IMG/VR virus record: IMGVR_UViG_3300020433_000002
Location: 20,506 to 84,505 of that record
Reading direction: 5' to 3' (one strand)
Length of the DNA: 64,000 nt
DNA from: a virus
Positions 38,601 to 56,214 of the stretch are shown piece after piece. The position numbers and the translations under genes are program-made. Numbering within the stretch: position 1 is the stretch's first letter; every line of letters begins with the position of its first letter. The notes beneath the pieces are model-generated. The model was not told where the DNA came from and searched no databases. It saw nothing but the letters and a program-made list of their open reading frames with translations.

Positions 38601-41339
38601 GATCATACAATTGATACTGAGTTTCTTGACTATAGATACAGTCAAAACGTATCTGACTTATATCCACAGTTAGATAGAGATAATCCAGACGATAACCCTA
38701 AAGCATCAAAATCTTATGCTTTAAGATCTCCTATTGGTGATGTTTCTACTAATGATCTTAAAAAGAGTTTGACCAGAGAAAGTACAGACTCCTTTATTAA
38801 AGCATTGGGTATAGGTATTACTTTATCAAATGCTCCAACTGGTGCAAACCCAACACTAACCTTTAGTAGAAGACATGGATATGCAGGTATTGTAACTGGA
38901 TCTATAACTAATCAAGGTAATAGTTATGCTGATGGTGAATATTTCAACATAAAATTATTAAATTCCTCAATAAGTGGCCCTTGGAGAGGTGCTACTGCTA
39001 GAGTAAGTATTGCTTCTAGTCAAATTACCAGTGTAGATATTCAATCAAAAGGTGCTGGATATGCTGCTGGTGATTTATATTTTGATCCAACATTTATTGG
39101 TGGTGATGGAACTGCTAGATATTCAATTACAAATGCAGGTATTACATCTGCTGTTGGAAACGTAGCACAGTTTACTGGTATTGGTGTAACTCAAGACCAG
39201 TACTTTAGAATAACTAGTGTTCCTAACGACACTCAGATTGCTATTGCTAAGACAGTTGGTGGCCCTGAGTTACAGGCAGGTCAATATGTATTTAATACTG
39301 GTAGAGCAGTAGAAATTGATAGTAGTAGTTTTGATGTTACAACTGGAATAACAACATTCAATTGTGTAAACAGTCATGGTTTGGCTGCAGGTAATAGTTT
39401 CACAATAGTTGATACAAATGAACACAATTTAGGCTCATATGTTGTTAACTCTGCTGTAGGTGTTACTACATTCAATGCAGTGACTGGAACTAGTGTAGGA
39501 GCTCCTGTATTTGCATATAAGTATGGTCTTAACTCTAACGAAAAACTTTCAGATAAATCTAATGAGAACCTAAGTGCACGTGCAGTACCTATCTTAGATA
39601 GTGAAAGTGCAACTACTATTGATTCAATTCCATCAAGTGGTATTACTACAGTTGCAGTAACAGGTGTTGATAATATAATTAGTAGATTCCCATATGGTTC
39701 TTACATTCAAATCAATAGTGAGATAATGAGAGTTGCTTCCAAGACTATTGTTGGAAGTGATCAACTTCAAGTTATTAGAGGTGTATTTGCAACAGGTATC
39801 CAAACACACACTGCTGGTTCTGTAATTAAGAAGATTAAACCAATACCTGTTGAATTTAGAAGACCATCTATTCTTAGAGCATCTGGTCATACATTTGAAT
39901 ATCTTGGTTACGGGCCAGGAAACTACTCAACTGCACTTCCACAGGTTCAAGACAGAACTCTTACTGAGAAGGAAGAATTCTTAGTTCAGTCACAGGAAAA
40001 ATCTGGTGGTGTTGTTGTTTACACTGGTATGAACAACAAAGGTGACTTCTATATTGGAAACCAGAAGAAATCATCTGCTACTGGTGAGGAGACAACATTC
40101 GATACTCCAATTCCAACTGTAACTGGTGAAACACCTGCAAGATTAAGTGCTGTATTTGATGAAGTAACTGTTAAAGAAAGAATAGTTGTTGAAGGTGGTG
40201 ACTCTGGAGACATTCTATCTTCCTTTGATGGCCCAACTACATTCAATAAGAGTGTTAAGATCAACAACCCTCTAAAAGTAACAGGTCAAACTCAATTAGT
40301 TAGCCCTGTTGATTCAACCAGTAAAGAATCAGGTTCTCTTATAGTTACTGGTGGTGTTGGTATTGGTAGTAATCTCTTTGTTGCTGGTGAAAATGTTGCA
40401 ATCTCAACTACAACTGGTGCAATTATTGTAGAGAAAGGTGGTGTTGGTATTGCTAAGAGCATACATGTTGGTGAAGGTGGTTTCTATGGTGGTGAGGTTC
40501 ATGCTACTAAATTTGTAGGTGATGGAACTCTACTAACTGGTGTTGAAATGCCTGGTGGTTCAATAGGTACTGTATTCTATGATGGTAATTTGATTGGTTT
40601 CGGTGCAAGTACTGGAACTCCTGATATGCGGATTGGTCATGATGGAGCAAATTCTATAATTAAAGAGGAAGGTACAGGAAATCTATTCTTACAAAGTGAT
40701 GGTAATGTAAAAATTACAAACGTTGGTGCAAGTCCAAGTAAGGTTTCTATTGATTGTAATACCGATGGAGCTGTACAAATAAACCATAACAACTCAATAC
40801 GATTTAAGACTTACTCAGGTGGTGTTGAGATTGGTGATCAAACTTCTAATGGAAACATACGTGCTCGTGGTGATATTACTGCATACTATTCCTCTGACGC
40901 ATCATTAAAAGATAATGTTCGTACTATTCATGATCCTCTTGAGAAAGTAATGCAAATTTCTGGTAATACATTTACTTGGAAAGAAAATGATGCTGGTCAT
41001 GAAGGTGAGGATACTGGTGTAATTGCACAAGAAATTGAAGCACTTGGATTACCAGGAATTGTTATTACCAGAGAAAATGGTAAGAAAGCAGTTCGTTATG
41101 AAAAATTAGTTCCACTTCTTATTGAAGCAATTAAGGAACTTAGCACAAAACTTGAAGTGCTTGCTGCTACACCAGACATTATGGCTGCTGTAGGAATGCT
41201 TAATGATATCACACAAGATAGAAATAAGATGATGGAAGAGAGATTGGAAAGGCAAAACCAATCTAAAAAGGATACTGGAAATCCTAATCAAGGCCCTGTC
41301 GGATGGTCGGAACCAATTCCACCCAAAGACGGAATATAA
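35700..41339 (+). CDS. Giant tail fibre with C-terminal S74 self-cleaving chaperone
   Basis: This 1879-residue protein starts MPLNKLDNFIKN. The N-terminal part has a pectin-lyase-like start (GNSLARPFKTVQRALLEAAR, TTIVLYPGEHIIDNRPGY). A long array of Ig-like HG-x3-G-x-x-I modules follows (around residues 315, 860 and 1225), then trimer-fibre repeats (GGVGIGSNLFVAGENVAIST). The end is a peptidase S74 intramolecular chaperone with Ser1732-Asp-x-x-Leu-Lys1737, the Ser-Lys dyad that cuts off about the last 148 residues after folding. An ACTAAATA box lies at 35654. Confidence 0.85.
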   Translation: MPLNKLDNFIKNTEGRILYVSPSDLDSTDSISNEGNSLARPFKTVQRALLEAARFSYVKGRSNDEIAKTTIVLYPGEHIIDNRPGYRIFNENGVAKVQPAGGGTVSNALTTLDLNLTSNFDLTQADNILYKFNSVYGGIILPRGTSIVGMDLRKTRIRPKYVPNPTDPNVAHSAIFRMTGTCYFWQFSLFDGDDLGLVYTDPANFAKTASPIFSHHKLSCFEYADGINFVTLGNTTYDITDLDMYYAKIGNAYNVGSGREIESTQKYPADPLAFWPRRPEFEIVGAFAADPITLTSIRAGDEAGVTNVVTAKTSRAHGYNVGTPIKVRGVTPTNYNISATVTSVSNSDDTVFTYTLPNPPLTLIPGNTSAATVTVETDTVLGASPYVFNLSMRSVYGMNGMNIDGSKATGFKSIVVAQFTGISLQKDDRAFVKYNPVARTYDGISLASVVDGAALAAESSATATGEAYHLDSSAIYRKGWETAHIKLTNDAVAQVVSVFAIGFANHFLTESGADQSITNSNSNFGQLSLVSDGFKKNAFEKDNKAFITSIIPPRKIETTSKDLDWLAIDKAKTLAVGDNAKLFLDGYTSADILPPVNTQGFKVGAKVGDVLFLLVGGSERSAQILMPDGSSSVKEYRVSSVDELLDSFTIGTNTLDTGEKVVITSDDGDLPENITNTELYFAIRAGSNDIKLAASETDAIAGKAIDIAGGTNLRIFSRVSDKVSGDLGHPVQFDATEGQWYINTNNSSGSGGIYAALSTVGLIPEDVTTATFIKRIDDTRSLDEKVYKIRVVIPKELQNAKNPENGFVIQESSSTGARSDADFTFNNTLTTSDYEFDKNPRFIATCNSSSTTGICSIRSELPHNVTEGDTIIVKNVTDSVNTTGVANTGYNGTYKVLTVHNSMEFAYQPTTLHGLKSTNDTSQRDLTLPRFEKNNLQTNLYIYRALKISNYVQDKQDGVYHIYALSSDHTIDTEFLDYRYSQNVSDLYPQLDRDNPDDNPKASKSYALRSPIGDVSTNDLKKSLTRESTDSFIKALGIGITLSNAPTGANPTLTFSRRHGYAGIVTGSITNQGNSYADGEYFNIKLLNSSISGPWRGATARVSIASSQITSVDIQSKGAGYAAGDLYFDPTFIGGDGTARYSITNAGITSAVGNVAQFTGIGVTQDQYFRITSVPNDTQIAIAKTVGGPELQAGQYVFNTGRAVEIDSSSFDVTTGITTFNCVNSHGLAAGNSFTIVDTNEHNLGSYVVNSAVGVTTFNAVTGTSVGAPVFAYKYGLNSNEKLSDKSNENLSARAVPILDSESATTIDSIPSSGITTVAVTGVDNIISRFPYGSYIQINSEIMRVASKTIVGSDQLQVIRGVFATGIQTHTAGSVIKKIKPIPVEFRRPSILRASGHTFEYLGYGPGNYSTALPQVQDRTLTEKEEFLVQSQEKSGGVVVYTGMNNKGDFYIGNQKKSSATGEETTFDTPIPTVTGETPARLSAVFDEVTVKERIVVEGGDSGDILSSFDGPTTFNKSVKINNPLKVTGQTQLVSPVDSTSKESGSLIVTGGVGIGSNLFVAGENVAISTTTGAIIVEKGGVGIAKSIHVGEGGFYGGEVHATKFVGDGTLLTGVEMPGGSIGTVFYDGNLIGFGASTGTPDMRIGHDGANSIIKEEGTGNLFLQSDGNVKITNVGASPSKVSIDCNTDGAVQINHNNSIRFKTYSGGVEIGDQTSNGNIRARGDITAYYSSDASLKDNVRTIHDPLEKVMQISGNTFTWKENDAGHEGEDTGVIAQEIEALGLPGIVITRENGKKAVRYEKLVPLLIEAIKELSTKLEVLAATPDIMAAVGMLNDITQDRNKMMEERLERQNQSKKDTGNPNQGPVGWSEPIPPKDGI

Positions 41340-41342
41340 ATA
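41335..41342 (+). promoter_or_regulatory. T4-type late promoter (TATAAATA)
   Basis: Exact TATAAATA over the stop codon of the S74 fibre, 19 nt before the next ATG. Confidence 0.75.
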
Positions 41343-41361
41343 ACAATAAAATCTAGGCTCA

Positions 41362-43356
41362 ATGGCAAATTATAATAAGTCATTTAATTTCAGAAATGGT
41401 GTACAGGTTGATAGTGATAACTTCATAGTCAACGCTAGTGGCTTGGTTGGAATTGGAACGTCAATTCCAATACGATTCCTAGATGTCCACGGAACCTCTG
41501 CTCTGCGTGGTCAGACAGACGTTACTGGAATAACAAGTACTAGTGCTTTACGTGTTGCGGGAATCGCTACATTCCATGGTGATGTTGGTATAGGAACCAC
41601 AAATCCTACAGGTAATGCGTTAATGGGGAACACCAATGTACTTAATGTTGGTGTTGTAACTGCTAATTATTTCTATGGTAGTGGTTTGTATATGGATGAT
41701 ATTGTCGGTTTCACAACCGATGGTTGGATTGTTCATCAAGCTAAAAATACTGTTGGTACAAGAACTGGTATTGCTACACACTTAAAGGTTGGTATTGGAA
41801 CAACTGAAGCAGATAATGCTTATGATTTAATGATTGGACAGAATCCAACAACTGCTGGTCTAGAAGGTATTGGATTTATAGGAGAGACAGGAGATAGTTC
41901 AGGTTTTGGTAATCAAATAATAATGAGTGGCCAAATAAAGGCAAACTCTTTTGTTGGTATTGGTACTGAATTAACACAATTAAATGCAAGTTATCTTGCA
42001 AGTGGTACGATTAGTAATAATAGACTTCCAGTAATAGATAACACTAAGTTTCCTGATCCAACTATTCTTAATAGTGGTAATGGTACATTACGGGCTAAAT
42101 TTGTAAACTTAGATGCGTCAGTAGGTGTTGTAACCGCAGGTATATTCACAGGTACATCTTCTAAATTCTATGGTCAGCATATTGGTGATGTAACTGGTAA
42201 TGCCGATACTGCAACTACATTGAATAGTAATTCAAATGTAAAAACTTCTGGAACATTAGATGCAAGAACACAAGTTGGTGCAGCATTAAGTGTTTCTGAA
42301 TCAATAGGTCTTTGTACATCATCCCCTAATGGTGAATTACATATATGTGGGGTTGATACAACTGGTGCAGCTACTATACAAGTAACAAGCCCTGAGCAAG
42401 CATCTCAATTAATCTTAGGATTAAATGCTAATGCACAGGATAATAACAATGGAATCCTTCAGTATGGTAATAGAAGTGCAGGGTTACCATATAGTCAGCC
42501 AGGTTCACTAGATCTTATTAACTATAGTAATGGTACTCATCAGGGTAATGTTAACTTCTACTGTGATGGTGGTGGTGTTGGAGTTAATACAGGAAGTTTC
42601 TACTGGCATGGTGATGGTTCTACTAGATTAGCGGCTCTTACTTATGAAGGTAATTTTGGTATAGGAGTTACAAATCCACAACTGAAGCTAGAAGTCAATG
42701 GTATAGGTACATTTGTAAGTAGTGCATTTGTTGGTTATGATCTTCAAGTTTCTAATGATTTGAGGGTTATGAGTGGTGTTGCAACTGCTCCTGCATTTAT
42801 AGGAAACTTCTATGGTGCGGATTCAACAAGTGTCGTTGACATTACATCTATTGGTTGTACAAACTTAAATGTAGCTGGTGTTACTACTATTAGTTACATA
42901 AGTTTAGGTATTGGTGGTACTATCCTTATTGGTGACCAAATGCAATTATATGGTGATGCTGCTTCACAGGGGAATTTAATTATCTCTGATGGTAGTGGAG
43001 AAGGTGGTAATATGAGTTGGTTTGATGATAGTGGTTATCTTGGTATCAAAACTGATACTAATTATTCAGATGCTTCAGGGCCAGGTTCTATTGGACTTGC
43101 TTGTGATCGAGGTGCAATATTCCGTACATTTATTGGTGTTGGTCGAACTAGCCCAACAGCTGGTGTTGACTTCTCAACTGCTAGTGACGACATCACAAGA
43201 AGATTCATGGTGTTACCAAAACTTACTACTACCCAAAGAAATAACTTAGCTGGTGCAGCAGTCACTGATGGTGCCTTGATTTATAATATCACTACAGATC
43301 ATTTGCAGTTTTATAATGGATCTTCTTGGAGAGAAATAACTGATACATCCGCATAA
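41362..43356 (+). CDS. Tail fibre protein (664 aa)
   Basis: Fibre repeats with GVGIGTTNP- and LNVGVVTANYFYGSGL-type units, several ending in VGIGT. A variable domain lies in the middle (about residues 320-450). The end is of a common phage fibre type (MVLPKLTTTQRNNLAGAAV...LQFYNGSSWREI). There is no S74 motif. It precedes the polyglycine protein by 3 nt, so the latter may be its tip adhesin. Confidence 0.75.
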   Translation: MANYNKSFNFRNGVQVDSDNFIVNASGLVGIGTSIPIRFLDVHGTSALRGQTDVTGITSTSALRVAGIATFHGDVGIGTTNPTGNALMGNTNVLNVGVVTANYFYGSGLYMDDIVGFTTDGWIVHQAKNTVGTRTGIATHLKVGIGTTEADNAYDLMIGQNPTTAGLEGIGFIGETGDSSGFGNQIIMSGQIKANSFVGIGTELTQLNASYLASGTISNNRLPVIDNTKFPDPTILNSGNGTLRAKFVNLDASVGVVTAGIFTGTSSKFYGQHIGDVTGNADTATTLNSNSNVKTSGTLDARTQVGAALSVSESIGLCTSSPNGELHICGVDTTGAATIQVTSPEQASQLILGLNANAQDNNNGILQYGNRSAGLPYSQPGSLDLINYSNGTHQGNVNFYCDGGGVGVNTGSFYWHGDGSTRLAALTYEGNFGIGVTNPQLKLEVNGIGTFVSSAFVGYDLQVSNDLRVMSGVATAPAFIGNFYGADSTSVVDITSIGCTNLNVAGVTTISYISLGIGGTILIGDQMQLYGDAASQGNLIISDGSGEGGNMSWFDDSGYLGIKTDTNYSDASGPGSIGLACDRGAIFRTFIGVGRTSPTAGVDFSTASDDITRRFMVLPKLTTTQRNNLAGAAVTDGALIYNITTDHLQFYNGSSWREITDTSA

Positions 43357-43359
43357 ACT

Positions 43360-44382
43360 ATGGTATTACAAAGTTCTGGAGCAATCTCCTACAGCGACAT
43401 CAAAAATGAGTTTGGTGAACCAACCAATAAAAATCTTGGTGCATATAGAGTTTCACAAACTATTGGTGGATTATCTAATAGACCTCTAGACACTGGTATT
43501 CCTAAAAGTGGTGCTATATCATTTAGTGATTTTTATGGTAAGAAATTAAATATAGTAGTTAATTTCTGGAGTGGTGGTACTGTTACTAGACAACAGGCTC
43601 AAACTCAATACAATAATAATAATGTAACAGTTATTGGTGGTTTTAAAGGTAAACCTGCTGTTAACAGTACTGGATGGCAAGGTGGTAAGAAGATTATTAT
43701 TCATGTAAATAAATTAATTGGATCAGTTGTACATAATACTCAGAATAGTAGATGTGCCTTAAGAACTGGATCATGGATTGCCAATACGGATTTAGTTATT
43801 GATGTTGGTGGAGAAGGAAGAATATGGGGTGCAGGTGGTAAAGGTGGTGATGGCCGAACTAATCAAGGAACTGGTGAAAGTGGAAAAACAGGAACCAGTG
43901 CATTGGGTATTCAATATGGTGGTGGAGTAACTATAAATGTAGCAGCTGGTGGACAAATTCATCGTGGATTTGGCGGTGGAGGAGGAGGTGGCGGTGGTCA
44001 CCAATCTGATAAAGGATCACGTCGATACGCTAGTGGTGGCGGTGGCGGTGGAGGTCAAGGATATCCTGGCGGCCCACATGGAGATAGAGGAAATGGTGGT
44101 GCATTAGGTGGTAATGGTACTGATGGAAGTATATCTGCTGCTGGTAATGGTGGTGGTGGAAGTAATAATGGTGGTGAGGCTGAAGGAGGAGCTGGTGGAG
44201 AAGGAGGCTGGACAGGAGATCCCTCTGCTGACGCAGGTGGTGGTGGAGAGGATAGTAGCGGTGGAGCAGGTGGCGGTAATGGTGCTGCTATCAGAAGAAC
44301 ATCTGGAATTAGTCTAGGATCTATAACTATAAACAACTCTGGAAATATTGATGGTGCAACAAATCAAACAGGAGTTTCATAA
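43360..44382 (+). CDS. Tail fibre tip adhesin with polyglycine-rich domain
   Basis: This 340-residue protein has an N-terminal attachment domain with two SGAIS-x-SD repeats (residues 6-13 and 50-57). A globular part (70-190) follows, and then about 120 residues with more than half Gly in runs separated by short variable loops (GYPGGPHGDRGNGGALGG). This resembles the polyglycine-II sandwich of T-even gp38-type adhesins, where the variable loops bind the host receptor. Confidence 0.7.
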   Translation: MVLQSSGAISYSDIKNEFGEPTNKNLGAYRVSQTIGGLSNRPLDTGIPKSGAISFSDFYGKKLNIVVNFWSGGTVTRQQAQTQYNNNNVTVIGGFKGKPAVNSTGWQGGKKIIIHVNKLIGSVVHNTQNSRCALRTGSWIANTDLVIDVGGEGRIWGAGGKGGDGRTNQGTGESGKTGTSALGIQYGGGVTINVAAGGQIHRGFGGGGGGGGGHQSDKGSRRYASGGGGGGGQGYPGGPHGDRGNGGALGGNGTDGSISAAGNGGGGSNNGGEAEGGAGGEGGWTGDPSADAGGGGEDSSGGAGGGNGAAIRRTSGISLGSITINNSGNIDGATNQTGVS

Positions 44383-44383
44383 C

Positions 44384-44412
44384 TTGCATTTCTACGAGAC
44401 TTGATATATAAT
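44384..44412 (+). promoter_or_regulatory. Sigma-70-type promoter before the oxygenase island
   Basis: TTGCAT (44384-44389), 17 nt, TATAAT (44407-44412), just after the adhesin stop and 21 nt before the first oxygenase ATG. Confidence 0.6.
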
Positions 44413-44433
44413 AGAAATAACTGAATATTTTTC

Positions 44434-45018
44434 ATGACCACTGAAAGTGAATTAATTAGAAGATATACAGGTATCTTCTCAAAAGAGAGATGCAGAAAAA
44501 TAATGAGACACTTAGATTATTTGGAGAATAATAATCTATTGTTTTATGATAAAAGAAATCTTCATATGGAAGACCATATGACTCTCAATGCAACTTTGGA
44601 TTATGAGATAGATTTGACTGCAACTACGAGAGTAGCAGAAGAAATACTCCCACTTCTTAAAAAACCAGTTGATGATTACTTAGAGACTGTTAGTATTCTC
44701 CGTTCAAGTAGATTCTTGTGCTATGATTGTAAGATAAAGAAAATCCCTCAAGGTGGAGGATTTCATAACTGGCATTTTGAAAATGGTGTTATAGGTGCGA
44801 CACCAAGAACTTTTGTGATACAATTATATCTTAATGATGACTTTGAGGGTGGCGAGACAGAATTTTTATATCAGAACAGAAGAGAACAAGCAGTACAGGG
44901 TGATGTTCTAATTTTCCCTGCAGGATTTACACATACACATAGGGGTAATCCACCAATAGGAGGAACAAAATATCTTGCTACAACATGGGCTATTATTCAA
45001 CCACCTGATGAACATTAA
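44434..45018 (+). CDS. 2-oxoglutarate/Fe(II) oxygenase (prolyl hydroxylase-like)
   Basis: This 194-residue protein has FHNWHFEN (His114-x-Glu116), FEGGETEFLY, then FPAGFTHTHRG with the distal His and a TKYLATTW strand with the Lys/Arg position. The usual H-x-D is H-x-E here, which still can bind iron. First gene of a run of three oxygenases with 1-nt overlaps, which must be cotranslated. Substrate unknown. Confidence 0.75.
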   Translation: MTTESELIRRYTGIFSKERCRKIMRHLDYLENNNLLFYDKRNLHMEDHMTLNATLDYEIDLTATTRVAEEILPLLKKPVDDYLETVSILRSSRFLCYDCKIKKIPQGGGFHNWHFENGVIGATPRTFVIQLYLNDDFEGGETEFLYQNRREQAVQGDVLIFPAGFTHTHRGNPPIGGTKYLATTWAIIQPPDEH

Positions 45019-45716
45019 TGGCTCAAGTTTTTAATGTATTTCCAACTACGATAGTTGTTGATGTAATGCAAGGACACAACAAATACGTCGAGGATTTTGA
45101 AAAAGTATATCATAAGTATGATTATGAACCTCAGATCCATAAAAATGGGTACGTTTATAATACTACTACCAGTGAAAACTTTGGGAATCCTTTATTACAT
45201 TTGGATGAGGAACTAGAGGATTGCTTTGGTGAGATTGCTTACAATGTGCAAAAATATATCTATGAGGTACTAGAGTATAAAAAGATATTTAATATTGTTA
45301 TTACTAAGAGTTGGTTATCTAGGTCTAGAAAATCTGAAGATGAAATTGTCTGGCATGATCATTCTGCAAGTCAAATATCCTTTGTATATTATTTAAAGAC
45401 ACCACCAAATTCACACGTATTGAAGTTTCTTACTCCTGATAATACTAATAGTGTGTTTAGAGGTAATAATACCAGTGAGTTTAAACATGGTATTGAAAAT
45501 TTTAATTTAGTAAATTCTTCTACATTCTTTATAGAACCAGTAGCGGGAAGTTTAATTATGTTTCCAAGCAGAGTAAAACATTGCACACACTCAATAGATG
45601 ATAATTTTGAGGGTGAAAGATTGGCTATTGTTGGTGATGTTACATTAGTATATAATCCTGATATTTTAGATTATTCTCAGGGATATATACATCCTAGATA
45701 CTGGAAGGTTTATTAG
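45018..45716 (+). CDS. 2-oxoglutarate/Fe(II) oxygenase-like protein
   Basis: This 232-residue protein has the segment VWHDHSASQISFVYYL (about residues 111-126), which fits the H-x-H/D and SGVYY pattern. The distal His is in FPSRVKHCTHS (about 183-192), followed by an Arg in GERLAIVGD. It overlaps neighbours by 1 nt on each side. Confidence 0.65.
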   Translation: MAQVFNVFPTTIVVDVMQGHNKYVEDFEKVYHKYDYEPQIHKNGYVYNTTTSENFGNPLLHLDEELEDCFGEIAYNVQKYIYEVLEYKKIFNIVITKSWLSRSRKSEDEIVWHDHSASQISFVYYLKTPPNSHVLKFLTPDNTNSVFRGNNTSEFKHGIENFNLVNSSTFFIEPVAGSLIMFPSRVKHCTHSIDDNFEGERLAIVGDVTLVYNPDILDYSQGYIHPRYWKVY

Positions 45717-46333
45717 TGTTTGAATTAAATGAAGAACTAAAAGTATGCAACTGCCAATCCAAAAGACCTATCTTTATAATAGATAATTTCTACGAGAATC
45801 CAGAAGAAGTTGAGGATTATCTTTTTAATAGAAATCCCCCACTATGGAAAATAAATGAAGAAGGAACCAATAATGGTGTGTATTTTGAAGATAGAAGATT
45901 CTTTGAGTATGATGAGAGACTACGAGAGGTATATGAGTATTTGAGTGAGTTGTGCGGACAGAAATTTTTTAGTTGTGATGTGAATACTAATATGACTCGT
46001 TTTACTAAAGATAGTTTTAATGACTACGAGAATTGTGTTTGGTGGCCACACTCTGATACTGGATATAATGGTATAGTATATTTTAGTGATGAGTGTGGTA
46101 CTTGTTTGTACGAAGACTTAGGTGTAGATGGTGATACTGTCGAACATCGTGAGCCTTGGAGACCGAAGGAAAACTATAAAGTATTAGAAACACTTGGTGC
46201 AAGGTATAATCGTATGGTATTATTTGATGGTATAATTCCACATGGAATGAATATATGTAATGATACATATTTTGGTAAGGAATATCGTAAGAACCAAGTA
46301 TTTTTCTTTGATAAAGATGAAGTCAATTTTTAA
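45716..46333 (+). CDS. DUF6445-like Fe(II)/2OG-type protein
   Basis: This 205-residue protein starts with GTG overlapping the previous TAG. It has an N-terminal PIFIIDNFYENPEEVEDYLF, then WWPHSDTGYNGIVYFS (His112-x-Asp114) and VLFDGIIPHGMN (distal His). This matches DUF6445-type proteins, which are often found beside flavin-dependent halogenases in bacteria. A halogenase lies two genes on, in the opposite strand. Confidence 0.6.
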   Translation: MFELNEELKVCNCQSKRPIFIIDNFYENPEEVEDYLFNRNPPLWKINEEGTNNGVYFEDRRFFEYDERLREVYEYLSELCGQKFFSCDVNTNMTRFTKDSFNDYENCVWWPHSDTGYNGIVYFSDECGTCLYEDLGVDGDTVEHREPWRPKENYKVLETLGARYNRMVLFDGIIPHGMNICNDTYFGKEYRKNQVFFFDKDEVNF

Positions 46334-46670
46334 AATATCAGAATATTTTCCAGAAACTAATCAGATTACTATTAGATTCTGTAGATTACACGCACCTAAG
46401 AATATTGATGAGTACAGACCTGTTAGTCTTGATCTGAATGATGATGCACTAGATTTGTATGATATAGAAACATTTACTCAAAGTATTATGAGAAAGGCTG
46501 GAGAGAAATGGATTGAAAGACATGAAGATTCTGAAGAGTTATTGTTTGAGAATATACCAGAGACTCCTAAAGGTAGGTTTAATATAGAGGATTTAATAGG
46601 TAAAGTTATATCATGTGAGACTTATAAACAAAGTAGAGAACCAATTAAGATGAGGAAAATTGAATTATGA
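46317..46670 (+). CDS. Hypothetical protein (117 aa)
   Basis: Starts MKSIFKISEYFPETNQITIR and has an acidic helix (DEYRPVSLDLNDDALDLYD). A longer frame from 46260 lies inside the previous gene, so the ATG at 46317 (17-nt overlap) is chosen. Not recognised; its place suggests a link to the oxygenase island. Confidence 0.55.
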   Translation: MKSIFKISEYFPETNQITIRFCRLHAPKNIDEYRPVSLDLNDDALDLYDIETFTQSIMRKAGEKWIERHEDSEELLFENIPETPKGRFNIEDLIGKVISCETYKQSREPIKMRKIEL

Positions 46671-47155
46671 CTATCCCTAGATACAAACATTTTTTTAAGA
46701 AGTTAGATAAGTTCTCAGTATGTGCATTGAAGGCCGATCCTACATGGATTGGTGTGGAGCAAGCACCTGATAGTTTTGGTACATATCATTATGTGGTACA
46801 TGGTAGTGCAAGGATTGGAGTACCATTTAAGGAAGAATATTTTGAGGTAAAGAGTAAAGAGTTCTTCTCTATGCAACATCTACTAGATCAACCAGTAATG
46901 ATGGAAACTTATGATGATTTTTATATGATTGGATTTAATGCTATAAACAGGAAAGAAGTATGGGATGGTAAATTAGTAAAAGAACCAACACTACAGGTAT
47001 CAAAAGAATCACATCTAATTTGTTTTGATGGTAACCCTATTGTAAATGGGAAACAACTAGAAAGATTTGATTATGCTGATCTATCTCCTGATAAAACTTA
47101 CGAGATTAATCTGAATGATGGTGCTTTAGGAGTATTTACGGAGTGTAGTGTTTAA
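46667..47155 (+). CDS. Hypothetical protein, possibly cupin-like (162 aa)
   Basis: Beta-rich sequence with YHYVVHGSARIGVPFKEEYF and ESHLICFDGNPIVNGK, which could be a cupin-type barrel, but no clear metal-binding set is seen. It overlaps the previous gene by 4 nt and the 3' end of the convergent halogenase by 20 nt. Confidence 0.5.
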   Translation: MTIPRYKHFFKKLDKFSVCALKADPTWIGVEQAPDSFGTYHYVVHGSARIGVPFKEEYFEVKSKEFFSMQHLLDQPVMMETYDDFYMIGFNAINRKEVWDGKLVKEPTLQVSKESHLICFDGNPIVNGKQLERFDYADLSPDKTYEINLNDGALGVFTECSV

Positions 47156-48332
47156 ACTTCTCAAAGTATATTCCTAGTTGAGCCCATAGAGCATCAGGAT
47201 ATAAGTTATTATATTTGTTAGGGTATTTCTTATAATTCTTCCATAAAGATTCATCCACATCAAACTTACTATAATACTTCCAGAAAGGTGTATCATCTCT
47301 ATCACTTAGCATATAATGATGTAATAAGTAATCTGAATTTTGTTTTTGTACCTTTAACATTGTTTTGTTATATGCCTCTGGTTTTGATCCTTTCAATATA
47401 CATTTAACTAATAAAGTAATACTATAAACCACCATATATAATCCATTTGCTTCCAATGGATCAACAAATCCTTGACCTAATCCTATAGTAACCACGTTAT
47501 CTTTCCATGGCCTTTTTAATACATTAGGTTTCCATTTAATATTTCTTGGTTGTATATTATTATATCGTTTTCTATTCTTAGTCCACCCTTTAAAATCATC
47601 AAGAGCTTCATCATCAGAGATATACTTATCAGAATAAACATAACCTGATCCAGTACGATTTTGTAGATCAATTATAAACTGCCATCCACATTCTCTTGCT
47701 ACTGTTTGTGTATATGGATTGATCTCTCCCTTTAATTCAAATGGACATACCCATGCACTATTAACTAAATGGTGATCCCATATCTCTTCAGTTCTATCAG
47801 TCGTAAATTTTCTAGCAAAACCACTAGCATCAACGTAGAGGTCATATCCTTTAGGTAATTCATCTAATGTATCAATAATATGAGTTACGTCTTTACAATA
47901 GTCTTTAACAACAGAATTGGCTAGGTTTGCATCTAAATGATATGCAACCGATCTCCACCCATCTTTATCATATAATTCTATGTGACTATTTTTATCTTTA
48001 ACACCAGACTTATATTCTTGATACCATTTATCAAAACGACCTTTAGGATCATCCTGCCAAAACGTCATGAGAAATGGATCCTTACCAACACCATCCCACT
48101 CATATTTCATGTTCCCATACTTATGGACAGCATTACATCCATTCATCCACTCTTTCTCTGGAATACCTAGTTCTTCAAAGAAGGCTCCTATTTGTGGAAG
48201 AGAAGATTCCCCAACACCACTTGTAGGTATCTCATCACTTTCGATTAATGTTATCTCAGCATCAAGAAATCTCTGCATATATGATGCACACCACCAACCA
48301 GAAGTTCCACCACCTATAATACAAATTTTCAT
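47136..48332 (-). CDS. Flavin-dependent halogenase (tryptophan halogenase family), short form
   Basis: This 398-residue protein has the FAD-binding GGGTSGW (7-13), GVGESSLPQIG (39-49), and the conserved active-site Lys as Lys71 in NAVHKYGNMKYEW. The late GLGQGFVDPLEANGLYM (about 284-300) matches the PLExxG region with Glu294. The usual WxWxIP is changed to GWQFIIDL (216-223). The family makes hypohalous acid from halide, O2 and FADH2. A viral member, VirX1 of cyanophage Syn10, is a known halogenase with a liking for iodide. Last gene of a minus-strand operon. Confidence 0.88.
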   Translation of the reverse strand: MKICIIGGGTSGWWCASYMQRFLDAEITLIESDEIPTSGVGESSLPQIGAFFEELGIPEKEWMNGCNAVHKYGNMKYEWDGVGKDPFLMTFWQDDPKGRFDKWYQEYKSGVKDKNSHIELYDKDGWRSVAYHLDANLANSVVKDYCKDVTHIIDTLDELPKGYDLYVDASGFARKFTTDRTEEIWDHHLVNSAWVCPFELKGEINPYTQTVARECGWQFIIDLQNRTGSGYVYSDKYISDDEALDDFKGWTKNRKRYNNIQPRNIKWKPNVLKRPWKDNVVTIGLGQGFVDPLEANGLYMVVYSITLLVKCILKGSKPEAYNKTMLKVQKQNSDYLLHHYMLSDRDDTPFWKYYSKFDVDESLWKNYKKYPNKYNNLYPDALWAQLGIYFEKFKHYTP

Positions 48333-48916
48333 TAATGAGTCCTACAATTTGGTAATAGGTCAGTCACAACCCTAAAGTTACTAGGATTGATGTACACACC
48401 CATGAGTATATGGTATATATCATTTACAAAAGCAAAGGATCCATGTTGTTTCTTTGTATTTAAAAGATATGGTTTCCCTGCCTTAAATGGTGCTAGTTGT
48501 TTATCATATATGAAGGCCCACTCATGTAATTCAGTCTTATTTAATGGTATGAAGATTCTCATTTGTTGTGTTGTTTTATAAGCATCCCTATGTGGTCTAA
48601 AGAAAGTACCTGCATCCATTTTAACTGCATGACATTTTGCTAGACTATTCCACTTATCAAAAAATTGTACTAGGGACGGACATGACTTTAAATTATTATT
48701 ATATTCTCCCTCTTTCTTATCTTTTACTCTAAGATCAAGAGTATCTGATCCAGTTAAAGATAATCCCATAGGAGCAGAGACACTTGGCCCTGTGACCCAG
48801 TTGTTGTTACTAGATAGTTGTGTTATAATATTATCGACATCAAAATCCCAGTCAAGTTCGACAATATCACCATAACTATTCAGTAGAGTTAGGAGTGTTG
48901 CCTGTGTATCGTTCAT
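48332..48916 (-). CDS. Asp/Asn-hydroxylase-like 2OG oxygenase
   Basis: About 194 residues from the ATG (a GTG at 48931 adds five). It has FFRPHRDAYKTTQQMRIFIP with H-x-x-D-type residues, then YLLNTKKQHGSFAFVND with a distal His, as in aspartyl/asparaginyl beta-hydroxylases and related cupins. It overlaps the halogenase start by 1 nt (TAATG), so it is translated with it and may act on the same substrate. Confidence 0.6.
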   Translation of the reverse strand: MNDTQATLLTLLNSYGDIVELDWDFDVDNIITQLSSNNNWVTGPSVSAPMGLSLTGSDTLDLRVKDKKEGEYNNNLKSCPSLVQFFDKWNSLAKCHAVKMDAGTFFRPHRDAYKTTQQMRIFIPLNKTELHEWAFIYDKQLAPFKAGKPYLLNTKKQHGSFAFVNDIYHILMGVYINPSNFRVVTDLLPNCRTH

Positions 48917-49166
48917 TTCTTGGGAGTTCACGTAGTTGATCCATTTTTCTTATATGTTCTATTCTCATAATCTCATGGTATAATCGGATTACATCTTTGG
49001 GAGCATCTGCTTTCCATATAAATGGTAGTAACCCATGAACAAGACTCTTAAATGAGATTGCAATTAACCTACGAGAATTACCTATAGAGTGTTTAAGATG
49101 ATACCAGTAAGTCCATCCAGTTTCTACTTCTAAGTGATATTTGGATTCCTTAAAAATATTTCTCAT
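48876..49166 (-). CDS. DUF6356-like small protein (96 aa)
   Basis: Starts MRNIFKESKYHLEVETGWTY and has HLKHSIGNSRRLIAISFKSLV then HGLLPFIWKADAPKDVIRLY, the H-x-H / HGLLP pattern of DUF6356, a family seen near capsule or lipid genes. A much longer frame to 49421 would cross the divergent oxygenase gene and is rejected. First gene of the halogenase operon. Confidence 0.6.
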   Translation of the reverse strand: MRNIFKESKYHLEVETGWTYWYHLKHSIGNSRRLIAISFKSLVHGLLPFIWKADAPKDVIRLYHEIMRIEHIRKMDQLRELPRNERYTGNTPNSTE

Positions 49167-49173
49167 ACTATTA

Positions 49174-49202
49174 ATTATATCATATCTATCTAGTAATGCA
49201 AA
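49174..49202 (-). promoter_or_regulatory. Sigma-70 promoter of the halogenase operon
   Basis: On the minus strand, TTTGCA (49202-49197), 17 nt, TATAAT (49179-49174), 7 nt before the DUF6356 ATG. The -35 overlaps the first codons of the divergent oxygenase gene. Confidence 0.55.
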
Positions 49203-49855
49203 ACCTACACTGCGATGCCTATACCGATCCTTTTCCACATATAGTTCTTCATGATTTCTATGATGATGAAGAGTTGGAGTTGATATGGGAAGAATTAAAA
49301 TTCTATACAAAACCAGGAAAATTAGTAACTCCTGATAAGTATGGTGGGATAGTAGGTAAGACTGATTCCAAGGCTTTAATGTTAGATGACGTATATCCAG
49401 AAGCATATAGAAATCTATCAAATATATTAGAAGTTAATAGAAAGGTATTTACATCTGGAGTATTGGATGTATTTGCTCAATGCCATGATTGTTGTAGCAT
49501 TGCACCTGAGGTTAATAAGGATAATACTAAGGTACGATATTATCATGATGGTGAAGGATATGAGGCTCATAAAGATAAGTCAGTTCAGTTTCTAGCATTT
49601 AGTTATTTCTATAAAGAACCTAAGAAGTTTACAGGTGGTGAATTGTATTTTCCTGACTATATCGACATGGATGCCTTGACGTGCGAGAATAATATGACTA
49701 TAATATTTCCTGGTTGGGTAAAACATGGAGTAAGGACAGTAACTATTGAAAATTCAGATTATTATGATGGCTTCGGTAGATACGCTATTACGAGTTTTAT
49801 GAGTTGTATAGATAAAGAAAAAAGAAATTTTCAAGGATTAAACAAGAAAGATTAA
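49196..49855 (+). CDS. 2-oxoglutarate/Fe(II) oxygenase (prolyl 4-hydroxylase-like)
   Basis: This 219-residue protein is a clear match to the P4H type: YEAHKDKSVQFLAFSYF (His125-x-Asp127), FTGGELYFPDY, FPGWVKHGVRTV (distal His) and an Arg in FGRYAITSFMS. The start is ATG in the 29-bp divergent gap opposite the halogenase operon. Substrate unknown; may be a protein or a halogenated product. Confidence 0.8.
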   Translation: MQNLHCDAYTDPFPHIVLHDFYDDEELELIWEELKFYTKPGKLVTPDKYGGIVGKTDSKALMLDDVYPEAYRNLSNILEVNRKVFTSGVLDVFAQCHDCCSIAPEVNKDNTKVRYYHDGEGYEAHKDKSVQFLAFSYFYKEPKKFTGGELYFPDYIDMDALTCENNMTIIFPGWVKHGVRTVTIENSDYYDGFGRYAITSFMSCIDKEKRNFQGLNKKD

Positions 49856-49857
49856 TT

Positions 49858-50430
49858 ATGCAAGATATACTTATAGGTGATAACTTTTTCTCTCATCCCG
49901 AGCTAATCCGTGAATTAGCACTTAGTTATAATGATTACAGACACTCAGAAGACCCAGAATATGAGTGTGGATGGAAAGGATGGAGAACTCCAGCCCCAAA
50001 GGCAATCAATGAGGGTATATATGATGTAATGACGAAGGCATACAAGATTGATGAGAAGGATTATGTATGTACACCATACTTCCATATTGCCTACGAGGAA
50101 ACTAAGTTAACTTGTGATTTTCCTAATTTTAAATGGCACGTAGATCAGAGTGAGTTTGCAGGGTTGGTATATTTACATCCAGAGCCTCCCAAGAAAACTG
50201 GAACCTGTCTGCTAAATGGTACAGAAAATGAAATAGTCACAGTTGATAATGTATTCAACAGAATCGTTGCATATCCCTCTTACTATTATCATGCACCCGA
50301 AGACTTGTTCGGAACTATGAAGGATAAGGAGAGCGGCCGCATGACTCTCACATTTTTTATATGGGCGAATGATAATCCACATAAACAACACGCAATAAAC
50401 TGGATGAGACTTATGGAGACTGAAAAGTGA
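49858..50430 (+). CDS. DUF6445-like Fe(II)/2OG-type protein
   Basis: This 190-residue protein has an N-terminal DNFFSHPELIRELAL and GWRTPAPKAI, then FKWHVDQSEFAGLVYLHP (His94-x-Asp96), AYPSYYYHAPEDL (His145) and GRMTLTFFIW (Arg). This is the DUF6445 pattern, also seen at 45716, and such proteins often go with halogenases. It follows the P4H-like gene by 2 nt. Confidence 0.65.
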   Translation: MQDILIGDNFFSHPELIRELALSYNDYRHSEDPEYECGWKGWRTPAPKAINEGIYDVMTKAYKIDEKDYVCTPYFHIAYEETKLTCDFPNFKWHVDQSEFAGLVYLHPEPPKKTGTCLLNGTENEIVTVDNVFNRIVAYPSYYYHAPEDLFGTMKDKESGRMTLTFFIWANDNPHKQHAINWMRLMETEK

Positions 50431-50510
50431 GAAAATCATACATACCTTTGTATGGTTTGTACGGGAAGCTCTAACGTCATAACGGGAAACCAGTTACAAA
50501 AGCGTCACAT

Positions 50511-50533
50511 ACCCTCGACCAGAGGGTTTTTTT
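50511..50533 (+). terminator. Rho-independent terminator
   Basis: ACCCTC (50511-50516) pairs with GAGGGT (50522-50527), loop GACCA, then a run of seven T. It closes the oxygenase island. Confidence 0.8.
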
Positions 50534-50543
50534 GTGTTATAAT
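50515..50543 (+). promoter_or_regulatory. Sigma-70 promoter embedded in the terminator
   Basis: TCGACC (50515-50520) within the hairpin, 17 nt, TATAAT (50538-50543). Drives the helicase gene at 50566. Confidence 0.55.
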
Positions 50544-50565
50544 AAGTGCATATTATGAGAGTTTG

Positions 50566-51753
50566 ATGCAATTACGACCACACCAACAAGATGCCCTCGA
50601 CGCTATGCAACAGCATGAGAAGGGTCAAATCATTGTACCTACAGGTGGCGGTAAGACTATCTGTATGATACATGATGCTATGAGAGAGTTCTCAAAGGAT
50701 CATCAACAGACCATAGTGGTCGTTGCACCTCGTATTCTACTAGCAAATCAGTTGAGTGCAGAGTTCCTAGAGTTCATTACAGATCCCACAGTGGATGTGA
50801 TGCACGTGCATAGTGGAGAGACACATCATTTCAGCACTACTAAGGTAGATGAGATTCGTGAGTTCAACTTCCACAATGCTAACAATGGTAGAAATCAGTT
50901 AATATTCACAACATATCATTCTTTACGTAGAGTGGTTGAAAGCAACATCACGATTGATACAGTCTATTTTGATGAAGCACACAACAGCACACAGAGAAAC
51001 TTCTTCGTGCCTACACAGGAACTCGCAACAAGTATATTCACACGTGCCTATTTCTTTACTGCAACCCCTAAGCACAGTCTCACACCTGCTAGAGCTGGTA
51101 TGAATGACTCTAAGGTATATGGAGAGGTAATCTGCAATGTACCTGCTCCAAAGTTAGTCAGAGAGGGTTACATACTACCACCAAAGGTGGAGATATATCA
51201 GTCTAGAATCTTGAAAAAAGATGAGTTGGTTGCTGATCGTGATTGTGAACAGATGATAGGTGCTATTGATAACCTTAAAAAGAGTAAGGTATTGATATGT
51301 GCGAAATCAACCGCACAGATTATCAATCTACTCTATCACACACCATTCACTCAGCAACTTGCATGGGCGAATTACTCATGGATGACTATAACATCTAAAA
51401 CAGGTGCTATAATAGACGGAGAGAAGGTCGATAGAGAGACTTTCTTTGATACTCTTAATGAGTGGGGAAGAGATCCTGAGAAAAAATTTGTTGTGTTACA
51501 TCATAGCATATTATCTGAAGGTATCAACGTAAATGGTCTTGAAGCGGTCTTGTTTATGAGATCTATGGATTACATAGGTATCTCTCAAACAATAGGTCGT
51601 GTGATCCGTAAGGGCGATGCAGACAAAGTGTTTGGTCTTGTATGCGTACCAGTTTATTCAAATGTAGGTATCTCTACTGCACGTAAGGTACAGAATGTTG
51701 TTGATACAATATTCAACAAAGGAGAGCCTGCTATTTCAACAGTAAGAAAATGA
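50566..51753 (+). CDS. uvsW: UvsW-like SF2 helicase
   Basis: 395 residues from MQLRPHQQDA; the in-frame ATG at 50452 lies before the promoter and is not used. Motif I TGGGKT (26-31), DEAH (136-139) with FTATP after it, and motif VI QTIGRVIRKG. In T4, UvsW unwinds branched DNA and R-loops and shifts replication from origin to recombination mode. It is shorter than T4 UvsW (about 500), so it lacks an N-terminal part. Confidence 0.8.
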   Translation: MQLRPHQQDALDAMQQHEKGQIIVPTGGGKTICMIHDAMREFSKDHQQTIVVVAPRILLANQLSAEFLEFITDPTVDVMHVHSGETHHFSTTKVDEIREFNFHNANNGRNQLIFTTYHSLRRVVESNITIDTVYFDEAHNSTQRNFFVPTQELATSIFTRAYFFTATPKHSLTPARAGMNDSKVYGEVICNVPAPKLVREGYILPPKVEIYQSRILKKDELVADRDCEQMIGAIDNLKKSKVLICAKSTAQIINLLYHTPFTQQLAWANYSWMTITSKTGAIIDGEKVDRETFFDTLNEWGRDPEKKFVVLHHSILSEGINVNGLEAVLFMRSMDYIGISQTIGRVIRKGDADKVFGLVCVPVYSNVGISTARKVQNVVDTIFNKGEPAISTVRK

Positions 51754-52199
51754 CTTCATCTATAGTATTAGTTACAGGTGGTTTTGATCCATTACATAGT
51801 GGACATATTGCCTACTTCAAATCAGCAAAAGCAATCGCACCATTGAGTCCACTCGCTGTAGGACTCAATTCTGATCAATGGTTATCGGACAAGAAAGGTA
51901 AACCATTTATGCCTTTGAAGGAGAGAATAGCAATCGTCAGAGAATTAAAGATGGTTGATGTTGTTATTGAGTATGATGATAGCGACAAGACAAGTAATTG
52001 TGCGATAGAGCAACTATTAGAAATATATGATAAGGTTGTCTTTGCAAATGGTGGAGACAGGCACAATGAAAATGTACCAGAGTATGAGAAGTTCAAGAAC
52101 AATGATAATGTGATCTTCCGATGGGCTGTTGGTGGTCTGCACAAGATGAACAGTAGTTCATGGATACTCAGGGAGTGGGATGAGAAAGATGACAAGTGA
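51750..52199 (+). CDS. Cytidylyltransferase-like nucleotidyltransferase
   Basis: This 149-residue protein has the nucleotidyltransferase signature VTGGFDPLHSGHIAYF (H-x-G-H) and FANGGDRHNEN. Its length and motifs fit the RfaE2/GCT branch that joins a nucleotide to a sugar or polyol phosphate. The other possibility is an NMN adenylyltransferase-like enzyme. It overlaps the helicase by 4 nt. Confidence 0.75.
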   Translation: MTSSIVLVTGGFDPLHSGHIAYFKSAKAIAPLSPLAVGLNSDQWLSDKKGKPFMPLKERIAIVRELKMVDVVIEYDDSDKTSNCAIEQLLEIYDKVVFANGGDRHNENVPEYEKFKNNDNVIFRWAVGGLHKMNSSSWILREWDEKDDK

Positions 52200-52287
52200 A
52201 TTATTATTAAAAATATACATGAAAGCAAGGAGACAACCACTTGCTAAACCAGTAAGAACACATTATAATGTGGCTACATATGGATAA
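52189..52287 (+). CDS. Possible small protein (32 aa)
   Basis: ATG overlapping the end of the nucleotidyltransferase by 11 nt; MTSELLLKIYMKARRQPLAK with a basic end. It fits the packing but contains the next gene's promoter, so coding is uncertain. Confidence 0.35.
   Translation: MTSELLLKIYMKARRQPLAKPVRTHYNVATYG
52241..52269 (+). promoter_or_regulatory. Sigma-70 promoter
   Basis: TTGCTA (52241-52246), 17 nt, TATAAT (52264-52269), 23 nt before the next ATG. Confidence 0.6.
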
Positions 52288-52292
52288 ACATT

Positions 52293-52439
52293 ATGAACGA
52301 CCTTGATTTTTCTCGCATTGCTAATGCTCTTGAAAGAATTGCAAATGCTTTAGAACATATCAACATTGAGAATATAGAGCATAATCATGTTGAGACTGAT
52401 GTACCAGTAGAAGTAAATACTCATGCTAAAACTTGGTAA
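52293..52439 (+). CDS. Small helical hypothetical protein (48 aa)
   Basis: Amphipathic heptad-like repeat ANALERIANALEHI near the N-terminus suggests a short coiled coil. It overlaps the next start by 1 nt (TAATG). Function unknown. Confidence 0.6.
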   Translation: MNDLDFSRIANALERIANALEHINIENIEHNHVETDVPVEVNTHAKTW

Positions 52440-52939
52440 TGAATATTTTTGTAACCGACCCTGATCCCATATTATCTGCACAGGTGCTACCTGATAAGCA
52501 TATCGTCAAGATGCCTTTAGAAACTTGTCAAATGCTTTCTATTGTTGCATCTAAAGAGTGGGGTCATGACTTTGGTAAGTTACCAAAGAAAGGTGGTGGT
52601 TTCTACAAAACAGAGAAAGGTGCATTTCGTAATCATCCCTGTACTATATGGGCTCAGACCTATTACAGTTGGTTGATTACACATGGTCTTGCTCTATGTT
52701 CAGAGTACACATACAGATATGAAAAGATTCATACTTGTGAATATACTATACAATATGCTGATGACTTATTCCCTGAGAGTCCACCACCCACAGAATTTGT
52801 ACGTGCCATGTTTGATGAGTTTAAGTATGATGAGTCTATTGATACTATTACTGCCTATAAAAGATATATCAATGCTAAGCCATGGGTTAAGGACAACTAT
52901 CTTAGAAAACCTGAGAGAAAACCTGATTGGATAACATGA
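52439..52939 (+). CDS. Conserved phage protein, possibly pyrimidine-dimer-glycosylase-like
   Basis: 166 residues from MNIFVTDPDP. The pattern D-x-D-P-x3-A-x2-L-x-DKHIVKMPLETCQML, then HPCTIWAQTYYSW, is found in a family of phage proteins of uncertain function sometimes grouped with pyrimidine dimer DNA glycosylases. DNA repair is possible but not shown here. The start overlaps the previous gene. Confidence 0.6.
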   Translation: MNIFVTDPDPILSAQVLPDKHIVKMPLETCQMLSIVASKEWGHDFGKLPKKGGGFYKTEKGAFRNHPCTIWAQTYYSWLITHGLALCSEYTYRYEKIHTCEYTIQYADDLFPESPPPTEFVRAMFDEFKYDESIDTITAYKRYINAKPWVKDNYLRKPERKPDWIT

Positions 52940-53781
52940 GAGATTTAATATTGTTTGGAGACTGTAGAGATACACTCACACAATTTGATGAGAAGGCAAG
53001 ATGTTGTGTTACATCCCCACCTTACTATGGACTCAGGAACTATGGTGATGAGGAGAATCAGATCGGACATGAACAAACACCAGAGGAATATGTTGATGAA
53101 ATGGTCAAGGTATTCAGATTGGTTCGAGAGTGTCTAACTGATGATGGTACTGTATGGTTAAACATAGGGGATAGTTATTATAACTATAGACCTGGTAAAG
53201 GTCAAGCACTTTCTAAACAAACACTAGCAAAGAATGATCAAGACCTACCTAGTAAATGTGCAAGGAGAGGTAATAAACTAGATGGATTGAAAGAGAAGGA
53301 TATGATTGGTATTCCTTGGCTTCTTGCGTTTGCCCTGAGGGCTGATGGTTGGTACTTAAGACAAGATATTATCTGGAATAAACCTAATCCAATGCCAGAA
53401 AGTGTGAGAGATAGATGTACTAAATCACATGAATACATATTCTTATTAAGTAAGAATCAGAACTATTACTTTGATGTAGATGCTATCAAAGAACCTACAA
53501 GAAGGAAGAGATCAGTATGGGATATAACTAAGAAACCATACAAAGATGCCCATTTTGCTGTATTTCCACCTGATTTGATTGAACCCTGTATCAAGGCTGG
53601 TAGTGAGAGAGGAGATATAATACTAGATCCATTTATGGGATCAGGAACTACTGCTATGGTATCCAAAGAGTTAGGAAGAGATTACATAGGTTGCGAATTA
53701 CATGAAGAGTATGGTAAACTAATACAAGATAGACTACAACCATACCATAATCCCTTAGAGAAGTTTTATGAAAAAAGTTGA
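52936..53781 (+). CDS. DNA methyltransferase (N4-cytosine/N6-adenine)
   Basis: 281 residues from the ATG that overlaps the previous stop by 4 nt. It has TSPPYYGLRNYG (catalytic motif IV, SPPY type) near residue 27, LNIGDSY, and near the C-terminus DPFMGSGTTAMV (SAM-binding motif I). The order IV before I is that of beta-class enzymes. No restriction enzyme is next to it, so it is an orphan that may protect phage DNA. Confidence 0.88.
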   Translation: MRDLILFGDCRDTLTQFDEKARCCVTSPPYYGLRNYGDEENQIGHEQTPEEYVDEMVKVFRLVRECLTDDGTVWLNIGDSYYNYRPGKGQALSKQTLAKNDQDLPSKCARRGNKLDGLKEKDMIGIPWLLAFALRADGWYLRQDIIWNKPNPMPESVRDRCTKSHEYIFLLSKNQNYYFDVDAIKEPTRRKRSVWDITKKPYKDAHFAVFPPDLIEPCIKAGSERGDIILDPFMGSGTTAMVSKELGRDYIGCELHEEYGKLIQDRLQPYHNPLEKFYEKS

Positions 53782-55221: not shown

Positions 55222-55231
55222 CTGGCACACT

Positions 55232-55255
55232 AGGGGTTGTAACGACCCCTTTTTT
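55232..55255 (+). terminator. Rho-independent terminator
   Basis: AGGGGT (55232-55237) with ACCCCT (55245-55250), then T-run. TATACT at 55260-55265 follows and is a probable -10 for the next unit. Confidence 0.85.
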
Positions 55256-55290
55256 ATTATATACTATAAGAGTAATTAAAGGAGCATTAA

Positions 55291-55431
55291 ATGAGGTGTG
55301 AAGTTAAACTATACGTTGCAGGTAAGGTATTTACTGAAGACGTTCATGCTGTTGACTATGCTGAAGCAAGGCAAGTTGCATTAGCAAGAAATCCTAACGC
55401 AAGAGTAATTGGTGTAAATGCGAAGTTCTAA
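55291..55431 (+). CDS. Small conserved hypothetical protein (46 aa)
   Basis: Preceded by AAAGGAGC (good ribosome site). MRCEVKLYVAGKVFTEDVHA then a short helix; ends VIGVNAKF. I recall similar small proteins in many cyanomyoviruses. It overlaps the next gene by 14 nt. Confidence 0.65.
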   Translation: MRCEVKLYVAGKVFTEDVHAVDYAEARQVALARNPNARVIGVNAKF

Positions 55432-55806: not shown

Positions 55807-55870
55807 GTATTTGTGCGTAGGCATAAATTTTTGTAAAAATGTATCATGAAATACAGACATAATTTGTCTA

Positions 55871-56210: not shown

Positions 56211-56214
56211 AGCA

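Follow-up and report, generated by a model that had tools for sequence, protein, structure and literature searches.

We describe an island of ten genes in a T4-like cyanophage, next to the genes for the tail-fibre tip, and propose that it is a modifying-enzyme cassette that would act post-translationally on the fibre tip, a reading to which we give a probability of about 0.4. The island spans positions 44434–50430 of the 64,000-nucleotide stretch analysed here (the window), itself positions 20506–84505 of the 84.5 kb IMG/VR record IMGVR_UViG_3300020433_000002. Situated between a glycine-rich protein (43360–44382) and a helicase gene (50452), it holds six genes resembling 2-oxoglutarate (2OG) oxygenases (A, B, C, G, I and J), one of the flavin-dependent halogenase (FDH) family (F), a DUF6356 gene (H) and two genes of unassigned function (D and E). 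An initial annotation had listed ten genes of these types in operon-like runs; all ten open reading frames are confirmed, their enzyme types are upheld by Pfam and conserved residues, and the operon-like arrangement stands.

The structural genes alongside give the island its setting. A fibre protein (35700–41339, our reference for fibre homologues in isolates) is followed by a tail-fibre-like structural protein (41362–43356, plus strand), which is syntenic in relatives and whose S-SRM01 homologue adjoins the tail fibre. Next comes the glycine-rich protein itself (plus strand; 28% glycine, with 41 glycines in one run of 80 residues), a predicted gp38-like fibre-tip adhesin and the putative substrate of the island enzymes.

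Conservation of the island

The full block is found in the same order and orientation in four other contigs (L003, L004, L005 and L009) at 72–99% protein identity, and is therefore not a chance assembly. The order common to the five is fibre, glycine-rich adhesin, A-B-C-D-E, F-G-H, I-J, helicase; a further contig, L014, holds G-H-I-J-helicase as far as its end. In L006, L008 and L010, which form a sister clade (halogenase 69% identical), H-G is retained and F follows downstream on the same strand after 7 kb; the interval contains tail genes, an SbmA/BacA transporter and a further 2OG-like gene, and the remaining island genes are absent nearby. The sister clade thus rules out the fixed ten-gene system of the initial annotation: within one genus-level group the block holds together, yet it is modular, assembled from separable parts. 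In these same three contigs the SbmA/BacA peptide transporter, a 115-residue membrane protein and the F-type halogenase form an operon-like row within the T4-like tail region (L010:8680–11206), the latter two genes overlapping by 4 nt. The transporter is in none of the seven other records examined.

The island halogenase and oxygenases

F (47136–48332, minus strand; 398 residues) is a short member of the PF04820 family (Pfam Trp_halogenase E 1.5e-71; 242 bits against a cut-off of 21). Foldseek comparison of its predicted structure gives top PDB matches that are all FDHs (probability 1.00; TM-score 0.7–0.78 on the query). The dinucleotide-binding GxGxxG reads GGGTSG (residues 7–12), with G7, G9 and G12 invariant. 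The catalytic residues K71 and E294 are invariant across 23 phage sequences, including the second, full-length PF04820 halogenase of the window, Q (57300–58823, plus strand; 507 residues), which lies outside the island, had been missed in the initial annotation and is a relative of AGH07741 of S-SSM6a. In PrnA, the catalytic lysine and glutamate are K79 and E346 (PrnA numbering). In place of the WxWxIP motif, F has WQFIID and Q has WIWETP. Because F has only 398 residues and WQFIID replaces WxWxIP, we file it as a PF04820-family protein whose predicted halogenase activity is likely but not certain. Free tryptophan is disfavoured as its substrate: compared with LooH and SttH, F lacks most of the C-terminal tail and about 50 residues between the two aligned blocks.

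Each of the six oxygenase-like genes has a recognizable family or site. A (44434–45018, plus strand) is a P4H-like PF13640 protein (Pfam E 1.5e-8) with an iron site H117-x-E119...H170/172...K182 kept in 64/65 homologues. B (45018–45716, plus strand) belongs to the 2OG-Fe(II) oxygenase 5 family, PF13759 (Pfam 3e-12, above cut-off), and shows H115-x-H117...H190...R203 (6/6 homologues), that is, HxH in place of HxD/E; HxH is found also in another PF13759-like gene (L126:7509–8072). C (45716–46333, plus strand, GTG start) is DUF6445-like (Pfam 7e-4, below cut-off; PHROG_1644 1e-34), with H118-x-D120...H182...R197 in 7/7 homologues. G (48332–48931, minus strand) is an aspartyl/asparaginyl-hydroxylase-like 2OG protein, giving no Pfam match and no PDB match by profile search and resembling an annotated pelagiphage Asp_Arg_Hydrox protein at 24%; its iron residues are H114-R-D116...H163, the distal R/K being unassigned. 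I (49196–49855, plus strand) is PF13640-like (Pfam 1.1e-5, just below cut-off), with H132-x-D134...H184...R202 in all 87 homologues. J (49858–50430, plus strand) is a DUF6445 protein (Pfam 2e-7) without a result in the PDB profile search, and keeps H108-x-D110...H159...R175 in 14/14. Residue numbers for A, C, I and J are counted on stop-to-stop frames. Most of the island oxygenases therefore keep the 2OG iron site, with the HxD/E...H triad in A, C, G, I and J and the distal R/K in A, C, I and J, in keeping with the signatures first read from the sequence.

Two database names sit awkwardly with these families. PHROG_1644, a head-and-packaging family named 'minor coat protein', is matched by C and J despite their likeness to DUF6445-type oxygenases; either the name is mistaken or an enzyme of this kind has at some time been detected in virions. 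Genes called 'DNA endonuclease V' (denV) beside the halogenases of S-H38, S-SSM7 and Sf-FP1 are recognized by Pfam as DUF6445 or 2OG-Fe(II) oxygenases (L147:6392–7024, L147:9434–9925 (weakly), L156:8450–9004 and L151:12211–12798), and PHROG_274 seems to be misnamed. In the window a PF03013 pyrimidine-dimer glycosylase (52433) is a gene separate from the 2OG-like genes that are named denV in isolates.

D, E and H complete the island. D (46317–46670, plus strand) has no Pfam match above cut-off and has homologues in L044 and L085, preceding E in every case; its start is placed at 46317, the methionine of the L009 homologue coming after a stop. E (46667–47155, plus strand) matches nothing in Pfam, gives no result in a PDB profile search and has a poor structure model (predicted local distance difference test score, pLDDT, 40); its gene converges on F with a 20 nt overlap. 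H (48876–49166, minus strand; Pfam 1.6e-8) is a DUF6356 protein of 96 residues that stays with G in the sister clade, its start taken as 49166 instead of that of a 181-residue TTG frame. G starts at GTG 48931 or ATG 48916, so the two genes overlap by tens of bases.

Halogenases beside fibre genes in other phages

We examined FDH surroundings in 20 cultured isolates, 19 genomes entering the enrichment test. In nine (syn9, S-RIM44, S-CREM1, P-TIM40, S-SZBM1, Sf-FP1, Sf-CH11, S-WAM1 and P-RSM6) the FDH comes after fibre genes and one to four proteins of 21–36% glycine, with 2OG genes alongside; in S-SRM01 it is located between the fibre and an annotated gp37–gp38 adhesin tip. The structurally characterized viral halogenase VirX1 (PDB 6qgm) matches, at full length, the second FDH of the syn9 pair. 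Within 6 kb of an FDH there are 41 2OG genes where random positions would give 14.5 (p<5e-5), within 3 kb 19 against 7.3 (p 0.006), and in 13/19 genomes an FDH and a homologue of the 35700–41339 fibre protein are no more than 10 kb apart (Fisher p 0.01), in tests that treat phages as independent, which is only partly true. The halogenase–2OG association is thus non-random in phages. In a quick tree of 50 FDHs, with long branches, the F clade, the VirX1 clade, a clade of short FDHs, S-SRM01 and S-SSM6a all include genes from the fibre slot, and at least five label changes are forced by the starred branches.

Many of these cyanophages also carry, between the glycine-rich adhesins and the halogenase, a conserved protein of ~160 residues (MKKAxxGxxGxI...EPGEEFEIYxGP...W) that lacks a Pfam match (for example, L141:7475–7969, L157:7490–7990 and L144:7458–7946); it is possibly a fibre-assembly protein.

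A second, shorter FDH type (~360 residues) often touches a 2OG gene. A 2OG gene lies within 60 bp in 15/33 of its loci, and 14 of those 15 also hold an adhesin gene no more than 2.5 kb away. The gene order is adhesin, A-I-A (on the other strand), J (or none), FDH, a methylase of the type of R (below) and helicase; in L078 the J homologue and the halogenase gene overlap by 4 nt. In L136, which has another fibre type, the order is fibre, glycine-rich protein, a 147-residue protein, FDH, a 185-residue protein and 2OG gene, and L126 has its FDH amid 2OG genes, within the stretch from baseplate to fibre.

The adhesin-to-helicase slot was surveyed in 76 relatives, anchored on I-family genes and so blind to halogenases. 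The glycine-rich adhesin gene is close to the I-family gene in 40/76 (within ~630 bp in 37) and was not detected in 36/76; in eight of the latter that were examined, I adjoins a gene read as gp59. Adhesins of slots that contain an FDH are higher in histidine (p 0.003) and marginally so in tryptophan (p 0.053), values that are phylogenetically confounded. Because most FDH-containing rows are one clade, we dropped adhesin aromatic content as evidence on the target and give it zero weight.

The pairing extends to bacteria. Among 30 halogenase-bearing proteobacterial genomes, 20 contain DUF6445, and an FDH lies within 1.5 kb at 16 of 30 DUF6445 loci examined, in line with the claim that bacterial halogenases are often beside DUF6445. 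The coupling therefore predates the phage setting or is independent of it.

Proposed function and alternative explanations

Gene content, active-site residues, synteny and recurrence beside fibre and adhesin genes are the observations on which we build a model; from them we infer its substrate, reaction order, flavin source and benefit. Late in infection, A, B, C, G, I and J would hydroxylate side chains of newly made adhesin (43360–44382) or of the adjoining fibre. F would take host-reduced flavin adenine dinucleotide, O2 and halide, and would halogenate exposed aromatic residues of the same protein, the flavin reductase feeding it presumably being the host's. The receptor-binding surface might thereby be changed or protected: hydroxylated or halogenated loop residues could shift affinity, guard against proteolysis or vary specificity. 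The VirX1 active site is described as large, open and accessible (PMC8407142), and gp38-type tips carry receptor-binding loops on a poly-glycine II core, with loop tyrosines that are important in phage PP01 (PMC12892980). The gene context favours the adjacent fibre-tip protein over a host metabolite as the more specific target.

Several observations weigh against tip modification. No modified residue has been observed; F, without an exact WxWxIP, might be a monooxygenase. Just 3 of 16 complete adhesin-to-helicase slots contain a halogenase, in each case of the shorter type, which also speaks against one ten-gene system. I-family genes adjoin the gene read as gp59 in other T4-like phages too, and with about half its relatives lying elsewhere we reject I as a dedicated fibre enzyme. 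The FDH of S-SRM01 has no 2OG gene nearby. FDHs of one group (Syn1, S-PM2, P-SSM2 and S-MbCM6) are located in auxiliary metabolic gene (AMG), tRNA or psbA regions, so that a universal FDH–fibre linkage is false, and those of S-B64 and HTVC008M are also away from the fibre slot. The S-SSM6a cluster, with its carbamoyltransferases and heptose genes, is a better fit to glycan or metabolite chemistry.

The scarcity of halogenases in the slot is what would be expected if the fibre-to-helicase space were an insertion hotspot, its halogenase and 2OG genes being morons independent of one another and unrelated in target. These genomes commonly carry 2OG genes (up to ~20 per phage), I-family genes occur elsewhere, and the sister clade has lost most of the neighbours. 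Such independence accords poorly with a 2OG density near FDHs of 2.8 times expectation, with the J–FDH and G–F gene overlaps and with the recurrence of DUF6445–FDH pairs in bacteria; moreover, several deep FDH clades share one slot, whose cargo is largely modifying enzymes. We consider a hotspot of unrelated genes rather unlikely. The island could instead make or decorate a small molecule or a host surface glycan (a biosynthetic cluster, or modification of lipopolysaccharide or capsule), its place beside the fibre reflecting late-operon co-regulation. Iyer et al. 2021 (PMC7824862) so read the S-SSM6a cluster of carbamoyltransferases, halogenase AGH07741, 2OG-Fe(II) dioxygenase (2OGFeDO), cupin and methylase, and Q groups with S-SSM6a; S-SSM7 has rfaE-, phosphoheptose isomerase- and epimerase-like genes at its locus, and L010 has glycosyltransferase-like genes beside H-G as well as the SbmA/BacA peptide transporter with its FDH. 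Pfam finds no glycosyltransferase, carbamoyltransferase, carrier protein or synthetase in the window island, however, and the 2OG–FDH–adhesin linkage recurs without such genes; we regard this explanation as unlikely.

Nucleic acid is a very improbable target. Here the 2OG oxygenases would hydroxylate, and the flavin enzyme halogenate, bases in concert with the DNA methyltransferases N (52927) and R (58863); R flanks FDHs both in the window (Q) and in L078-type loci, and cyanophage 2OG genes were earlier tied to DNA repair by position (PMC2984593). The island 2OG families are, however, P4H-, AspH- and DUF6445-like, with no AlkB-, TET- or JBP-type member found by Pfam, and known FDH chemistry is on small aromatics (PMC8407142).

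Tip modification by the island enzymes could have a wider counterpart. It is possible, if doubtful, that cyanophages including the VirX1 source halogenate and hydroxylate their own glycine-rich tip adhesins through fibre-linked cassettes, an unrecognized post-translational route to alter or protect the receptor-binding surface. For viral halogenases a structure has been solved and a rich in vitro chemistry is known, but no natural substrate, the published guesses being antibiotic protection or metabolite tuning; fibre-tip linkage makes that substrate testable in virion proteomes. Were the proposal true, chemical modification would join the known ways in which phages vary their host-binding proteins, and natural substrates would become available for halogenase engineering.

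Genomic setting

The source record starts with psbA, as does a 152 kb relative (L009), and contains T4-like tail genes; the nearest named relatives of its helicase, a ResIII/DEAD protein that closes the island downstream, are from Prochlorococcus phages (for example, P-SSM2 at 66%), alongside unannotated single-cell marine viruses. These features mark the virus as a T4-like, Kyanoviridae-type cyanophage. Within 40000–60000, methylase genes account for nearly all DNA matches to named phages, and the lineage is therefore one without a cultured close relative. In the L009 record, psbA matches in two slightly overlapping pieces at the contig start (4–318 and 316–759; G001:C1:4-759), from which we deduce a frameshift or an interrupted gene.

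Q stands directly upstream of methylase R (57300–59834 for the pair), and R-type methylases also come after the short halogenases of L078-type phages. A NodU/Nol-like carbamoyltransferase lies at 12415–14115, 30 kb away from the island; in S-SSM6a and S-SSM7 an enzyme of this type accompanies the halogenase.

Comparison with known systems

Published accounts have read these genes differently. Weigele et al., as cited in PMC2984593, proposed antibiotic protection for the halogenase, which PMC9964418 follows; cyanophage 2OG genes have been connected with DNA repair or with 2-oxoglutarate levels (PMC3037559; PMC9146016). The initial annotation had called the island the best candidate in the window for an undescribed multi-enzyme system. 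The fibre-tip linkage was not found in the literature searched (subscription papers are mostly outside its coverage) and is apparently new; the clustering is not wholly so, as a halogenase, 2OG and carbamoyltransferase cluster is published for S-SSM6a (PMC7824862). The island is thus a variation on cyanophage halogenase–2OG clustering already in print.

Like the island, the S-SSM6a cluster lies downstream of large structural genes and combines a halogenase with several 2OG-type oxygenases, and Iyer et al. interpret it as a halogenated metabolite or capsule-decorating system. It differs in its carbamoyltransferases, methylase and sugar-nucleotide genes, and in a halogenase related to Q, not F; by Pfam, 44434–50430 contains no carbamoyltransferase, amino-acid methylase or sugar gene of the S-SSM6a type. 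The S-CREM1 run (PMC9964418) shares collagen-like or glycine-rich proteins, an FDH and then eight annotated 2OG-family genes plus JmjC; unlike the island, it is all on one strand and lacks DUF6356, and its genes were presented as individual AMGs (for antibiotic protection, DNA repair and metabolism), not as one unit.

In Alteromonadales and Caulobacterales, a DUF6445 gene adjoins a PF04820 tryptophan-halogenase gene, as in the island, in this case without phage fibre genes. The VirX1 locus (Syn10/syn9) differs in the proteins themselves, the biochemically characterized VirX1 having 530 residues against 398 for F, which falls in a far clade, and syn9 carries two tandem FDHs on the same strand. 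It shares with the island the arrangement on which our proposal turns: a PF04820 halogenase of a T4-like cyanophage, with fibre and glycine-rich proteins ahead of it and a run of 2OG genes behind.

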